Assembly: GCF_030704535.1 (NCBI RefSeq)
Contig: NC_081823.1
Location: 342,501 to 406,500 of the forward strand
Length of the DNA stretch: 64,000 nucleotides
From: Vitis vinifera
Taxonomy: Eukaryota; Streptophyta; Magnoliopsida; Vitales; Vitaceae
Reading direction: 5' to 3'
Position numbers and translations under genes: made by a program. The notes below the pieces were generated by a model. It was not told where the DNA came from and did not search any database. It worked only from the letters and a program-made list of their open reading frames with translations. Shown in pieces: positions 17,259 to 25,510 of this stretch; the first letter of the stretch is position 1, and every line of letters begins with the position of its first letter.

Positions 17259-17985
17259 GAATGCATTTTATGATGTTATATATACGACAAATTTTGACTT
17301 TCGAAAACTTAATCGATTTTAAAACCTTTGTACCATTATACGACAAACGTAAGATATAACAAATATAACATTTTTTACAACACCAAAAATGTCAACATTT
17401 AAAATTAGTCAAATTATTCCATTGTTCGACAAAGTAAGACTTTTTGTAAACGTCGTCCATCCCATATTTGACAAATTAATTAAAATGTTTTATTTTGTAT
17501 AATTGAGTTATGTATACGCACTCACACTTAAGTTTGCCCTAATTAGACTAATTAGGGTGGTCTTTCAATAATATAATTAATTAAACTATCGACTTCAAGT
17601 TAAGAATGTATTTTATGATGTTATATATACGACAAATTTTAACTTTCAAGAACTTTATCAATTTTAAAACCTTTGTACCACTATACCATAAACGTAACTT
17701 TTAGAAAAGGCGATAAGTCAAAATTAGAACTTGCTAAAGTTTGTATCCAACAAATAAAACATTTTTTACAACACCAAAAATGTCAACATTTAAAATTAGT
17801 CAATTTATTCCATTGTTCAACAAAGTAAGACTTTTTGTAAACGCCATCCATCCCATATTTGACAAATTAATTAAAATATTTCATTTTGTATAATTGAGTT
17901 ATGTATATGCACTCACACTTAAATTTGCCATAATTAGACTAAGTAGGGTTCAATAATACAATTAATTAAACCGCCGACCTCAAGT
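17259..17985 (+). repeat. ~345-bp tandem duplication upstream of the MADS-box gene
   Basis: Two head-to-tail copies start at 17,259 and 17,604. Shared landmarks are TTTTATGATGTTATATATAC, TTTTTTACAACACCAAAAAT, AAGTAAGACTTTTTGTAAAC and CCATCCCATATTTGACAAAT. The second copy carries an extra segment of about 45 bp near its middle. The pair ends about 330 bp upstream of the MADS start codon, so it may have duplicated part of that promoter region. Confidence 0.8.
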
Positions 17986-18226: not shown

Positions 18227-18314
18227 GGGTTTCGTGAGTTACAAATGCAAAGTACTTAGCCAAATGATCTTCAAAACTTGAGTTTTGTCCTCAAATTTTT
18301 TTTTTTCACGCCTA

Positions 18315-21300
18315 ATGGGTCGAAAGATTGAAATGAGGAAGATAGAGAATACTACTAGACGTCAAATCACATTCTCTAAGCGCAAAAGTAGTCTGATAAG
18401 AAAGGCCAATGAAATCTCAATCTTATGTGATGTAGATGTCGCCTTGCTTACCTATTCACCATCTGGTCGTCTTAATAAGTTTTGCAATAGAGATAGGTAT
18501 TTTCTTCCTTATTTAATTTACTTGTATTTCTTTTCCTTTTAATACTCATTTGCTAATAAATTTTTTTTTTTTTACTAGGATGGAGGATGTGATAAAAAGT
18601 TACATCAATCTAAGTCCTGCAAAAAGATATTAGTAGGAGATTATTCTCAATATTTTACTTTACTTACTTCAAGTGTTTTTTAGGAGCCAAAAATACCAAA
18701 ACTAGTTAATTTTGAAAAATAAATTTGTTCTGAGTAAATGTTAGCATATCTAAGTTTTCCCTCTCTTTAATATTTCTTGGATTTAAATCGAGCTTGAATG
18801 TTCTTTTGGGTTTCTTTTTTAACAATTTGATGGTGCAATCAATGGTGAAGCAGTCAAACAAAGAACCTTAAGGTAAATGAGTTTTGTGAATAGATTCTTA
18901 TTAGGCAATTTTGTCTTTTGTAATTAAAAAGAACACATAGCATTAATTGCAGGCTAAGTTGGAGAAATTGCAAATGTTGGACTTCATTGGGGATGATGAC
19001 AACAAATTGGACTATCTCAATGACCGGTATGATTCTCCATCAATTTAAATTTTACCAAAAAGATAAAAGAATATTATTTGCTTCCTTTTGATCATTACCA
19101 AAAAGAAAAAAAAAAAGGTTACTAATGTCAACTTTTTATTTTAGTCATGATAACACTTATATTAGAGAATTTCATTTCTTACTAACACTCAAATTTAGGT
19201 AAATTTTACTTGTTTTGATTAAATTATATTTCTTATAAATTATATAATGATCATCAGTTGATACTGATTCTCTTTGTTTGTGATGTCATGCTACATTCCG
19301 CGTAATTACAACAATTTGTATCTACAAATGATAGAATTAAGGTAAGACACACACCTGAAAAGAGAGATATAAGAAAAATTATAAACTTCTCTTAGTCCAA
19401 GTGTTATATTTGATTATTTATTAAAATTAACCCTTGGAAAAAAATGATGGATTAGTGTTGAAGATTTGACACTCTTAAAAAAAATATTAGAGTACTTTAT
19501 ACATAATTATATGTTTAAACTAGTTATTTTCTATACATTCAAATGTTAATTTTACGTGTGATTACTACAGTATTTGGAGTTGCAAGAGAAAACAAGCAAA
19601 ACAAAAGTTCAACTACTAGAAGCCAAATTCAAGTAACTCTATCATTATAATGCTTTATTTATGTAACTTTGGTTATCTCATACTTTGTAATTTTTCATAT
19701 ATCGATTTGATCTTTCTTTGTAGGGAATATGATATAAGATCATATATGGAGCCTTCTTTGGATCAACTCTTGAAGTGTGAGAAGAATTTGAAAAATTCTC
19801 TACGCTTGGTCATGGATAGAAAAGTGAGCTTCACTCTCTCCATATATTTTTATTTTTTTGAAAAAAAAAATTTGAAGAATGGTTGCCAAAAACACAACAA
19901 TTCTTATTTATCTTTGTCATCTCATATTCGATTGTTTTTTTTTTTTTTTTTTCTAATTTTCTTCACCAGACAGAATTGCTTAGAGAGTTAATACACCCTA
20001 ATGGGCAATCCAATGCTAACAAAACCCAGGTACAAAATCTTAAGAAATAAGATAATTGAAGGAAAAAAAATTGAAAAAAAAAATCCTTTTAATTGTCATT
20101 ACTTTTTTCTATATGGTTTGATGATATAGCATGAAGTACAGGTGGGGATGGAAACTACAAACTGTGGCCAACAATTTGAGAACACCTTTGACAAGAAAGA
20201 GCTGAATTACCAAATACAAAAGTCGACCGATGGCCAACTTATAATGCAACTTGATCCTCAAAATATTACAAATCGGTGTGTGCTTGTATTTATTTATACC
20301 TATATATGAATATGTAATTGTTCCTAAAGTATTATTCTATTTTTTGTATAGTTTGAAGATTAGTGAGAGCGGTTTCCAAGACATAATAAATGGAGCTATG
20401 AACCAACTGGGAGCTTCACAATTCGAAATCCATCCAACTTATACCTCTCAATCCAAGTAAGTACGTATATACACTTATACATTAAGTGATTACATAATAA
20501 GATTAAAGTCATTTTTCTATTCCTTGCAATAGGTCCAAGGTTAGTGAGAACATTTTTCAAAACACAATAGATGGATTCATTAACCAATTGGAAGCTTCAG
20601 CATCAACTTCAAACCTCCAAATTCGTCCAAGTTATACCCTTCAATCTAAGTAAGTTTACATAAGAAGATTAAAACCATTATCCTTTAAATAAGAAGATTA
20701 AAAAATCGATATTTTATCCCTTTCAACAGGTCCAAGGCTAGCGAGAGTATTTTTCACAACACAGTGGATGGATCCATGGGTCAACTTGGTGCTTCAACAT
20801 CAACTTCACAATTTCAAATTCATCCAACCATGTATTTACTATTTACATTTATATGCATATATCTATATATATACATACATGGTTCTATGATTACTAAGAA
20901 GTTTCAAACTATTATTTCTTTATAACAGTTCCGAGGTTAGTGAGCATACTTTTCAAAACACAATAAATGGATCCATGAGCCAATTGGGAGCTTCAACATC
21001 ATTTTCACAATTCCAAATTCATCCATCTTATGCCCCTCTATCCATGTAAGTATGTACAAATATACATATCACATACATGCATATAGTATATTAACCATTA
21101 TTATATTCCTTGCAATAGTTCCAAGGTTAGTGAGAGCAATTTTCAGAATACAACAAATGGATCCATGAGTCAGTTGGGAGCTTCAACACCCATGTCACAG
21201 TTCCAAATTCCTCGACCAACTTATACCCCTTCATCCATGTAAGTAATGCATACATATATGCATGTTACAATTATACATAACTATACACTCGTACACTTAA

Positions 21301-22962
21301 GTGATTAAAATCATTATCCTATTTATTGCAACAGTTCCAAGGCTAGTGAGAGCATCTTTCAAGACACAATTGATGGATGCATGAGCCAATTGGGTGCTTC
21401 AGCATCAACTTTACAGGCTCGAATTCCTCCAACTTATGTCCCTCCATCCATGTAAGTACATACATACATACATATACTCATTGAATGATTGCATCAAAGG
21501 ACTAAAATGGTTATTATTTACATAAGAAGATTAAAATCATTACTCGTTCTATTCCTTGCGAAAGTTCCAAGGTCCATGAGAACATTTTTCAAGACCCAAT
21601 CGATGGATTAATGAGCCAATTGGGAGCTTCGACATCAACTTCAAACTTCCTACTTCCTCTAGCTAGTGCCTCTCCATCCATGTACCAGTTGGAAGCTCCA
21701 TCACCAACTCCACAATTTCAAATATCACCAGCTTATACTCCTATGCAGGTACCCCATTTTCTAATAGATATATTTTGGTTGAAGATTTGTTTCTTACAAG
21801 CTTCTGACTACTCTTAACTTAACATTGGGAAAATGGTAGCAGCAAACTATGGTGAGGAATCAAATTGTACAAAGACCCCAAAATCAGCAAGTGGGAGTGT
21901 TGAATAACTCATCCATGGTATGAAGTCACACTATATACAAACTGGAAATATATCGATTCAAGTAAAAAGTTAGAAAGGGCAAAGTTCTTCATTGTAGTTA
22001 TAGAGATTGTGAAATTTCAAGGGCTGTTAAACATAGTTTTCGAAAATAATTTTTAAAAATTAATTTTTAAAAACAGTTCTCGTTTGGGTTTAAGAATAAA
22101 ATTCAAAGTTTTCTTGAGTTATTCTTTGGAAAGGTATTGCGTACTTATATACAATACATGCTTTCAGTTGTTTTCTCAAGCCACTTTATAATACCTAAAA
22201 CTTGTCCTCAAAATTCACCTGATTGTTTAAAAAGTTTATCAAATTGTTTTGCTGTTTGGGAAACTTTTCAGATTTTAACCTTCTGATTGGATTTAGGGAC
22301 AGTTTGGGCATGATGCATCTTATGGGATTCAGCAACAATATTCAACACCAACATTAGGCAATCATGAGGTACTATATCTCGGAATCAAACAACATTTTTA
22401 CAATCATCCTTTCTTTTTTTCAGTCTAATATTCTAAGAAATTGTAAAATGTTTTATTAACTAAGTGTTTTGAATTTTTTTTTTTTCATTTCAGAACAATC
22501 CAAACAGGCAAGATGGTGTAATATCAACTTTTCAGTTCAATACAAACATGGGGAAGGTTAATGAGTTCAACATTAGTATTAATCACTATCCATCCCTGAA
22601 TTCAAATGTTGGGGTACCTTCAACTTCTCAAAGGTATGTTATTATACTAAGGAAAAAGAGTAGGAAAGAATTCAAAATCTTGCTTAGTTTAAATCTATTA
22701 TTTATTTATTTTTAATTTTCTTTTCCATAACCTTTTCATTTATAATTCCATGTCTACTCCAAAATTGTCTATCTCTCATTTTATTACAAATTTACAACAC
22801 TTTTTCAGGATTTGTTCATCCATGGTTTGTGATCCTTCATTCACCACCACCACCATTGCAAACTTGAGCAATGACAATGGCTGTTTTGATGCAAATGAGA
22901 AATATCCAGGCATTGCTGATGAAGTTGATACCAACTTTACCACCTACAAATGGCAGTTTTGA
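18315..22962 (+). CDS. MIKC*-type MADS-box factor with seven tandem-duplicated exons
   Basis: Nuclear DNA-binding regulator of the AGL30/65/66/94/104 type; that family acts mainly in pollen. Exons by eye: 18315-18496, 18579-18632, 18854-18872, 18953-19026, 19335-19341, 19571-19632, 19724-19823, 19970-20029, 20130-20275, 20352-20456, 20533-20649, 20730-20831, 20929-21045, 21119-21238, 21335-21451, 21565-21748, 21843-21917, 22297-22368, 22494-22633, 22809-22962. All junctions are GT-AG and give one open frame of 668 codons. Residues 1-60 are a MADS domain (MGRKIEMRKIEN, ITFSKRKSSLIRKANEIS). The K-like part carries YLELQEKTSKTKVQLLE and LLKCEKNLKNSLRLVMDRK, typical of MIKC*. Seven repeated modules (KVSE, FQ, QLGAS) then precede a Gln/Asn-rich tail. 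The first ATG of the MADS domain is used. Exons 2-3 and the 7-nt exon 5 are the least certain. No symbol is given because the exact orthologue is unclear. Confidence 0.82.
20352..21748 (+). repeat. Tandem exon-plus-intron repeats inside the MADS-box gene
   Basis: Seven exons start at 20,352, 20,533, 20,730, 20,929, 21,119, 21,335 and 21,565, spaced 181-230 bp apart. They are 105, 117, 102, 117, 120, 117 and 184 nt long. Each codes for a variant of SKVSE, then FQ, then GSMSQLGAS, then a Ser/Thr-rich stretch, then a PTYTP-like end. The first six begin and end in the same codon phase; the seventh carries an extra segment with a second QLEAPS-like half-unit. The introns between them also resemble each other (GTAAGTA near the start, TTGCAATAG near the end), so the duplicated unit was genomic and included the intron. 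Confidence 0.92.
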
Positions 22963-24094
22963 TGGGAATGTGAAGCCTCTAAGACATCAGAATTAGGTGG
23001 GTAATAACTTCAGCATCACATATAGCAATAATATCGGTGCTTATGGTAATAATTAAGAATATGTTTGTTGATAGCTAATTATATATTTTTTCTAATGTTG
23101 ATAGGCTGTGAAGGTGACTCCAGCAAATGAAGATGACTGTTGAAATTAATGGAGAAATTTATCCGAGTTTCAAATTATTGTCTTAGAAATTAGCAATAAA
23201 TTTGCGAGTTTTATGTTTTAAGAGTCATTTTAGGAGTATTTTATAAGTGGAATATGGTCCTTTGTTTTAAGAGATGTTTTATAACATGTTTGTATGTTAA
23301 TGCTTTGGTGGGGTGGTTTATTTAAGTGCAAATCATTTTAGTAAATAAAACCGAGACATTGTTTGACTGAGAAAGAGTATAATGGTGAAGCTCTCATTTT
23401 CTTTTCAATTGCGGCTAAAAGAAAAAAAAAATCTTAAGGGTTAAATCTACGATGGGGGTAAACCTATCATTCATCAAATAAACAAAAAAATATTTTATAA
23501 AACATCAAAAACAATTTTCCTCTATGAAATGCAACAAAATTGGTTTCTGAATTCAATAATTTTCATTTATTTTTAAAATAATTATACAAACATAAAAAAT
23601 AATTAAAAATAAAATGCTACAAATAAAAAAAATTAATACATTTAAAAATACATAAACCAAATTAAAAATATTTCAAAGTTTTCAAATATATCTTTGTTCT
23701 ATAAAACATAAAAAATGACTTTCAAAAACTATTTGTAGAAATATTTTCAAAAGTATTTCCTAAAGAGAGGCTTAAATACAAAGTTCTTGAAAATATCTAA
23801 AATCTATTGCAACTTAGGATAATAATTTAACAAAAAAAACATACAAAGCATCCTAATGTAAGGCCCTTATTAGAAATTATTCCTGAAAATAGTTTTCCAT
23901 TTTTTAAAATAAAAAATAGTTTTCTAACTTAATTAGAAAACAAGTTTAATAAACTTTTGACAAAAAATAGTTTTACCAAATTTTATTATCAAAACATATT
24001 ATTTTTAGAATGAACATGAGATATTTTTAATTGTTGTTATTAAAGTGTTATGAACAATAATTAAAAATATAGAAAATACTTTGAAAACTTTTGT
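22963..24094. other. 3' flank of the MADS-box gene; AT-rich
   Basis: AATAAA-like signals occur near 23,191 and 23,343. A possible 3'UTR intron lies at about 23,000-23,105 (GTGGGTAATAAC to TTGATAG). The rest is AT-rich and MITE-like, with many AAAATA and TTTTAAAA runs, and no gene. Confidence 0.4.
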
Positions 24095-25510
24095 TAGAAA
24101 AATTAGGCTAATCCAATCTATGATAATCACCCTAGAGGAGGGATGAAAAGGGTAATGATTTCTTTTTGTAAATTTAAACTAAGTGAATAGAAGAGACAAA
24201 TATATGCAAATATATAATAAAACAATATAAAGACAATTTGTATATAAAACAAAAGAGTAGGGAAGAGAGAATGCAAACACAAGATTTTGTAGTGGTTCGA
24301 CGCAACTCGGCCTACATCCACTTTCCTTTAGCTTCAATCCCAAGCTTGAGGTTCCACTAATTCAAGGCTTCCAAATCAAGTCTTTAAGCAATACAATTGG
24401 ATTATGGTTCCAATCCACCCTCTTGGACTTTTGGTTTCAAGCACCCTTTACAAACCTCAAGAGGTATCTCACTCTTGAATAACCCCTCAAGTGATACCCC
24501 ACACTTGAGAATATTTCTCTCAAAGATATACAAATAATTAGTCTCACAAAATCCTAGTACAAAAATTTTAAGTTCAAATTATACAAGAAAACCAGGATTG
24601 AATGGTGCATTAAAGATATGCAAGTTTTAAAACAATGGTGCACTAAAAAACACTCTTCCAAGACTCAAATATATTCAAGAAAGATTTGAGAAGGTTAAGC
24701 TTATGAAATAATAAATATTAGAGCCTTTTTATAGAAGAAAAAAAGTCAAATTAGCCGTTGGGGGTTCGACCGGTCGAGTTAGGGTTCGACCGATCGAGTT
24801 GGGAGTCGACCGGTTGACTAGCCGTTAGCATTTAATGCTTGACAGGTGACTGTTGGACCTCAACTGAACCTCAATCGAACATCGACCAAACCTCAACCGA
24901 TTGAGGTTCAACCTTAACCGGTTGAATAACCGTTCTGGAAGAAAGAGAAAGTTTTTTGCACCCTCAATCGGTTGAGTTAGGGGTCGATCGATTACTGTTC
25001 ATACCCTTAACCGATTGAGCTGGGAGTCGACCCGGACCTCGATCGGTTGAGCTGGCCGTCGACCGGTTCCTCATCAGGTTCAACCGATTGAGCCGTTTTT
25101 TACTAAAAAAAAACCAACTTTTTCAACTTAAAACCTTTTAAACAAGTTGGAAAAACATTTAACACAAGGTTTTAGTTGAAAACATGAAATCATTCAATTT
25201 TAAAATATTTAAAACAAAATAACTCTTGAATGATTTTGCTGCATAAGTAAAAAATGTAATGCATGAAAATCCTAGTGTACCAACAACCTTACAAAAAGAT
25301 CTTTTAAAGCTTGGGTCTTTGAAAAACACTTCTCTTAGAGGTGATCTTCTTCTTCATTATTTCTCCTTGACTTGATTTGTCTTTATAATTGCCACTTTGG
25401 AAATTGTCTTACCTAATCACACTTGAAATATAATCATTAGTTATAAATCTTGTTTTATTATTATCAAAACTGAGATTAACTAAACTTTGGTTTCACAACT
25501 TTTATATCAT
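24095..25510 (-). mobile_element. Second CCGGTT/CCGATTGAG-rich element, reversed
   Basis: Read on the minus strand it begins near GTTAATCTCAGTTTTGATAA and ends near CATCCCTCCTCTAGGGTG, matching the layout of the element at 14,271-15,465. Positions 24,760-25,100 hold about ten degenerate copies of a CGACCGGTTGA / CAACCGATTGAG unit. There is no coding capacity. It is a decayed non-autonomous element; family and exact ends are unsettled. Confidence 0.4.

Follow-up and report, generated by a model that had tools for sequence, protein, structure and literature searches.

A divergent MADS-box gene of the MIKC* type was studied in grapevine (Vitis vinifera, assembly GCF_030704535.1, contig NC_081823.1). 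The window, that is, the whole stretch of DNA analyzed, comprises 64,000 nucleotides (nt; C19:342501-406500, where C numbers denote contigs), and belongs to a genome of 495.6 Mb in 21 contigs. The gene carries a predicted array of seven related exons (R1 to R7) encoding variants of one module of about 39 residues, which we read as a tandem exon duplication in the part of the gene coding for a putative C-terminal tail. The features of the gene are given below in window coordinates, the exons upstream and downstream of the array being named E and C, respectively; phases are those of the two exon ends, and "paralogue" refers to a related gene at C7:27.90 Mb.

18315..18496, + strand: E1, MADS-box exon, 182 nt, starting with ATG; Pfam SRF-TF, E 1.2e-20
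18579..18632, + strand: E2, 54 nt, phase 2-2; length and phase as in paralogue exon 2
18631-18633, + strand: TAG, end of the published gene model (319-bp span, PMC4729134 Table 1)
18854..18872, + strand: E3, micro-exon, 19 nt, phase 2-0; length and phase as in paralogue exon 3; alternatives exist
18953..19026, + strand: E4, 74 nt, phase 0-2; paralogue exon 4 has 62 nt
19335..19341, + strand: possible micro-exon, 7 nt, where exon 5 would be expected; a weak candidate
19571..19632, + strand: E6, coiled-coil-like (K region), 62 nt, phase 0-2
19724..19823, + strand: E7, 100 nt, phase 2-0; homologous to paralogue exon 7
19970..20029, + strand: E8, 60 nt
20130..20275, + strand: E9, final exon 5' of the array, 146 nt, phase 0-2
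20352..20456, + strand: R1, repeat exon 1, 105 nt, phase 2-2
20533..20649, + strand: R2, repeat exon 2, 117 nt, phase 2-2
20730..20831, + strand: R3, repeat exon 3, 102 nt, phase 2-2, donor GTATTT
20929..21045, + strand: R4, repeat exon 4, 117 nt, phase 2-2
21119..21238, + strand: R5, repeat exon 5, 120 nt, phase 2-2
21335..21451, + strand: R6, repeat exon 6, 117 nt, phase 2-2
21565..21748, + strand: R7, 184 nt, phase 2-0; one full module and a partial eighth module
21840..21917, + strand: C1, 78 nt
22297..22368, + strand: C2, 72 nt
22494..22633, + strand: C3, 140 nt
22809..22962, + strand: C4, last coding exon, ending with TGA
20823..22649, + strand: segment copied into Mutator-like transposons (C16 and C7; C10 with one unit fewer)
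22645..22982, + strand: segment with two further copies on C9 (97% identity)

A preliminary description of this stretch, made from its letters, had proposed seven consecutive copies of one exon with related introns. The array was found exactly where it had been placed, R1 starting at 20352 and R7 ending at 21748, and repeat families, shuffles and splice sites all agreed with the proposal. A repeat search returned a seven-copy family (86 nt; copies 60-73% identical to the reference; start-to-start spacing of 181-230 nt) and a second family of six copies over 155 nt (66-79% identity). Compared without gaps with the rest of the array, the R1 segment matched at up to 73%, against a maximum of 53% in 200 shuffles of the region. 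As had also been described, every copy has kept its frame and splice sites: the frame is open, and R1-R7 have AG at 7/7 acceptors and GT at 7/7 donors, 14 splice dinucleotides in total. The introns of the array measure 73-113 nt and are partly alignable among units. With its adjacent homologous exons and homologous introns, the predicted array is a tandem exon duplication. Such duplications obey a symmetric-phase rule, which is followed by R1-R6 but not by the terminal R7: from the exon lengths and the open frame, R1-R6 have lengths of 3n and phase 2-2, and R7 has phase 2-0. Because of this, units among R1-R6 can be gained, lost or skipped with the frame intact. R7 reads in frame through a site equivalent to the donor of the other units (CATGTACCAG) into the partial eighth module, MYQLEAPSPTPQFQISPAYTPMQ; the donor site of R4-R6, TCCAT/GTAAGT (the slash marking the exon end), is TCCATGTACCAG at the matching place of R7. 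Across the seven modules 6/39 columns are invariant and mean column identity is 71%, Ser, Thr, Gln, Asn and Gly making up 49% of the composition. None of the 18 scored genome matches to the module consensus fell outside the array gene (seven matches) and its transposon copies (four on C16, four on C7 and three on C10).

Exons were read by hand in the paralogue at C7:27.90 Mb and then compared by script with those of the array gene. The paralogue has exons of 185/54/19/62/28/62/100/51/122/190/144 nt, exon 10 (190 nt) having phase 2-0, and the array gene has, in the same order, 182/54/19/74/(exon 5 not found)/62/100/60/146 nt, followed by the array. The two genes are alike in exon order, phases and most lengths over E1-E9: E2 (54 nt), E3 (19 nt), E6 (62 nt) and E7 (100 nt) have the lengths of their counterparts, E4 is 12 nt longer, and the phases agree at all eight exons found 5' of the array. 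They are also alike in the sequence of E7, which is clearly homologous to paralogue exon 7 (0/1000 shuffles as good). A second paralogue, at C18:4.01 Mb, resembles the array gene in exon order, phases and most lengths over E1-E4 only, its exons 1-4 measuring 185, 54, 19 and 62 nt. R7 (184 nt, 2-0) occupies the place of exon 10 (190 nt, 2-0) of the C7 paralogue, which differs from the array gene in having a single exon 10 and no array. Since the preceding exon order and phases match those of this paralogue, the array would sit at the exon-10 position. The C7 paralogue is presumably of the S-clade type, judging by its likeness to that clade. Another MADS-box gene (L045, C17:1.33 Mb), first taken as MIKC*, looked to be of the MIKC-C type by its K region (by eye) and was not used. 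The Pfam match of the MADS domain in E1 covers 48/48 positions, and with this domain and its MIKC*-type exon order and phases, the predicted gene is a divergent MIKC*-type MADS-box gene. Phases, splice sites and module comparison thus agreed with the earlier view that an exon-intron unit multiplied and diverged in a MIKC*-type gene.

The stretch that starts with the ATG and ends with the TAG immediately following E2 (window 18315-18633) measures 319 bp, and Vitvi19g00027 is listed at 319 bp, chr19:329777..330095, in Table 1 of Grimplet et al. 2016 (PMC4729134). In the parts of that paper covered here, MADSD3a is placed in the MIKC* group and in neither the S nor the P clade, berry and seed expression is reported for it, and its protein is termed truncated, consisting of the MADS box and five residues. 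We infer that the names Vitvi19g00027 and MADSD3a refer to a single gene and that it is probably the array gene. Since the five residues do not obviously fit the 78-residue reading of E1-E2, this identity rests on position and span. Other MADS-box gene spans also agreed with the published table, that of the C7 paralogue being 2868 bp, as for Vitvi07g01792. The downstream exons (4.3 kb) and the array are unmentioned for Vitvi19g00027/MADSD3a in the parts of the paper covered.

Our preferred explanation, to which we assign a probability of about 0.5, is that a tandem exon duplication occurred at the exon-10 position of this divergent MIKC* gene and that the array has been kept open and spliceable, coding for a putative tail. 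A partial duplication of exon 10 would have come first, after which misaligned intron-exon units would have recombined unequally, adding further units. The polar Ser/Thr/Gln/Asn/Gly-rich modules of about 39 residues might make up a disordered tail at the C-terminus, for which length or composition, and not the exact sequence, would be important, for example in transcription activation or partner contact; selection would hold the array open and spliceable while its amino acids drift.

A number of observations weigh against this explanation. R7 and paralogue exon 10 are weakly alike (13/1000 shuffles as good), and for E4, E6 and E9 no significant sequence similarity to the matching paralogue exons was obtained (345, 165 and 315/1000 shuffles as good, respectively), so that the assignment of these three exons rests on their length and phase. 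A K box was not found by Pfam, which returned SRF-TF only for a query protein made without E5 and E6; since the K box is undetectable in 4/6 grapevine MIKC* genes (PMC4729134, parts covered), its absence from the Pfam result does not exclude MIKC* membership. The published model covers E1-E2 only, in a paper in whose covered parts gene models are said to have been curated with RNA sequencing data (PMC4729134). No AG acceptor precedes the place where a 28-nt exon 5 would be expected, and E4 fails to join E6 in frame. The pooled NG86 ratio of nonsynonymous to synonymous substitution (dN/dS, here w) of R1-R7 was 0.67, and 400 neutral simulations gave 0.70 (standard deviation 0.18; P=0.485). Finally, two low P values that speak for the explanation carry a caveat. 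In 1000 neutral simulations on an HKY tree of the seven modules (tree length 1.02), 5.1 stops were expected and the modules have 0 (P=0.007), and intactness of 7 AG and 6 GT, the R7 donor being left out, has a neutral probability of P=0.022; both values were obtained on an array chosen for looking open, with a root sequence that was itself made from copies free of stops.

The single frame of 668 codons that had been threaded through the gene was not reproduced. With E5 and E6 skipped, the frame is open from end to end and has 647 codons, the stop counted; including the 7-nt micro-exon at 19335-19341 gave 670 codons. The threaded frame is not clean, since the exon-5 acceptor is missing, and a search for GT-AG routes through an exon of at least 10 nt ending at the exon-5 donor, and from there in frame to E6, found none. 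A route from E4 through E5 to E6 was rejected, there being no canonical exon 5 of at least 10 nt at the expected donor; five cryptic single exons elsewhere, or the 7-nt micro-exon, would each restore the frame between E4 and E6, and all of these were set aside as unsupported. The gene may be partly broken.

It is possible, though we hold it short of probable, that the gene is decaying, its product being a short MADS-only protein from E1-E2 and the array and tail being neutrally drifting relics that are by chance still open. This would account for the published 319-bp model (PMC4729134), for the berry and seed expression reported in the covered parts of that paper for MADSD3a, for the missing exon-5 acceptor with the clash of frames between E4 and E6, and for the neutral replacement ratio. 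It would not lead one to expect an array without any stop where about five would have arisen neutrally, nor the presence of 14/14 splice dinucleotides in R1-R7, nor that C1-C4 are likewise open. The repeats had been described as under constraint, with a dN/dS near 1 among them named as contrary evidence. This view held for the open frames and splice sites and failed for the amino acids, w being close to its neutral value, so that the contrary evidence named was roughly obtained. Pairwise w among units ranged from 0.19 to 3.22, on few sites, and identity among R1-R6 was 78% at codon positions 1 and 2, 75% at position 3 and 63% in the introns, whose alignment is gappy. Openness and splicing thus look held by selection and the residues do not; the amino acids of the repeats fit neutral drift.

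The array might also work as an alternative-splicing device, R exons being chosen in varying number or combination to give tails that differ in length or sequence. Any subset of R1-R6 keeps the frame, all having phase 2-2 and lengths of 3n, and the introns, at 73-113 nt, are not too short to be spliced in plants. The MADS-box gene MAF1/FLM has mutually exclusive exons (PMC3266260, parts covered), but the phases of the array do not require strict mutual exclusion, and we regard such a device as improbable. MAF1/FLM is like the array gene in that adjoining exons are concerned, used there as alternatives; they are two I-domain exons whose splicing has been demonstrated, whereas that of the grapevine array is predicted. 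A further proposal, unlikely in our judgment, is that the tail is an exon-level minisatellite: its frame-neutral units would be gained and lost by unequal recombination, its length would vary among cultivars and species and would tune activation, and only openness and splicing, not the residues, would be selected.

Tandem exon duplication was reportedly treated by Kondrashov and Koonin in 2001 and by Letunic et al. in 2002. The array is like such duplications in general in its adjacent homologous exons, and here there are seven copies in the tail of a plant transcription factor. Exon duplications in the K box of MIKC genes (Rumpler et al. 2023, as cited in the covered parts of PMC13293092) are likewise cases in which exon duplication shapes a MADS protein; those duplications are ancient and lie in the K box, whereas in the grapevine gene a tail exon is present seven times in one gene. 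In agreement with the preliminary description, which knew of no such architecture, neither the array nor the combination of seven frame-neutral tail exons in a stub-annotated transcription factor was seen in literature searches covering listings and abstract beginnings of open-licence PMC papers. If the long form is expressed, the array would be an overlooked part of a grapevine MADS-box gene annotated as a stub, and it would offer a natural test of whether the length of a transcription-factor tail is tuned by exon copy number; interest in the gene hinges on its transcripts.

When window 18300-23200 was used as a DNA query, 19 matches were obtained in the genome, one of them the gene itself. 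Window 20823-22649 (about 1.8 kb) recurred on C16 (96%), C7 (95%) and C10 (95%, one unit fewer), and window 22645-22982 recurred twice on C9 (97%); of the remaining 13 short matches, 12 lay in introns and one was a MADS box. The copies on C16 and C7 are enclosed by elements at C16:6647780-6673396 (25.6 kb) and C7:20650363-20675638 (25.3 kb), whose terminal inverted repeats (TIRs) are identical at 59/59 nt and which are flanked by a 9-nt target-site duplication (TSD; 9/9 on C7 and 8/9 on C16). The C16 element has a 606-residue frame for a MuDR-type transposase with DBD_Tnp_Mut, MULE and SWIM domains, and for the C10 copy the left TIR was seen. Given these TIRs, TSDs and the transposase, the predicted elements holding the C16 and C7 copies are Mutator-like. 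Transduplicating grapevine Mutator-like elements (MULEs) have been reported (Benjak et al. 2008, PMC2528002, parts covered), and the present ones resemble them in MuDR type, 9-nt TSD and captured host intron-exon fragments; no MADS fragment is reported there, the string "mads" occurring 0 times in the main text. Tandem exon duplication and the spread of a gene tail by a Mutator-like element are both known kinds of event.

The presence of the same units in Mutator-like elements on C16, C7 and C10 also raises the question of whether the repeats came from a transposon that donated them to the MADS-box gene. This origin was rejected as highly improbable: none of the copies reaches beyond R4-C3 or includes a MADS part, a TGA interrupts R5 (2/2 copies in which that stretch is present), the R7 donor is replaced by CT (3/3 copies), and at least four further places matching the TIR at 100%, among the best 40 of 702 candidates scored, had no match to the gene. 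Given the TGA in R5 and the CT at the R7 donor, we read the copies as broken versions of the gene. Since they hold several units, the array appears to predate the capture, and we infer that it is older than its spread by transposons. The C10 copy has no counterpart of window 20970-21159, 190 nt that equal the exact R4-to-R5 spacing, and the join lies within an exon and in register. As this copy lost exactly one unit, the unequal recombination that would have built the array by tandem exon duplication can be seen there in reverse. The transposon copies thus provide both an outgroup and direct evidence of the loss of one unit.

Fixed differences between the gene and the transposon copies were found at 13/837 exon and 28/982 intron sites (Fisher P=0.080, suggestive only); as a control, sites varying among the transposon copies numbered 15/837 in exons and 12/982 in introns (P=0.34). 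The fixed codon changes between gene and copies were 10 replacement and 3 silent, which fits the absence of selection, the neutral expectation being 71% replacement, and a majority-rule count gave 16/837 exon and 33/982 intron sites, with 12 replacement and 3 silent codons. Because part of this divergence arose during the history of the transposon copies, it is of little use for judging the gene in its present state.

Several minor observations were made on the copies and on the surroundings of the gene. The regions carrying the copies (L039, L040 and L041) agree at about 98% in their main pieces, and the C16 element also holds a PF20167 "Transposase_32" frame. The C9 copies of window 22645-22982 lie in stretches of about 10 kb that are 97% alike (L042 and L043; C9:16.84 and 17.10 Mb); in L042 the copy lies near ENTH-like and weakly EF-hand-like frames, perhaps in another gene-capturing element. 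The right end of the segment copied to C16, C7 and C10 coincides with the left end of the C9 segment at window 22645-22649, for which one old capture that was later split and a favoured break point are candidate explanations. Upstream of the gene there is a direct repeat of about 80 nt, at window 17500-17585 and about 17890-17970, its copies about 390 nt apart (by eye). The intron between C1 and C2 contains, at window 22012-22158, a short dispersed repeat with 10 further genome matches, and the motif ACCGGTCGA occurs in repeats at window 24762-24814 and L039:7214-7401.

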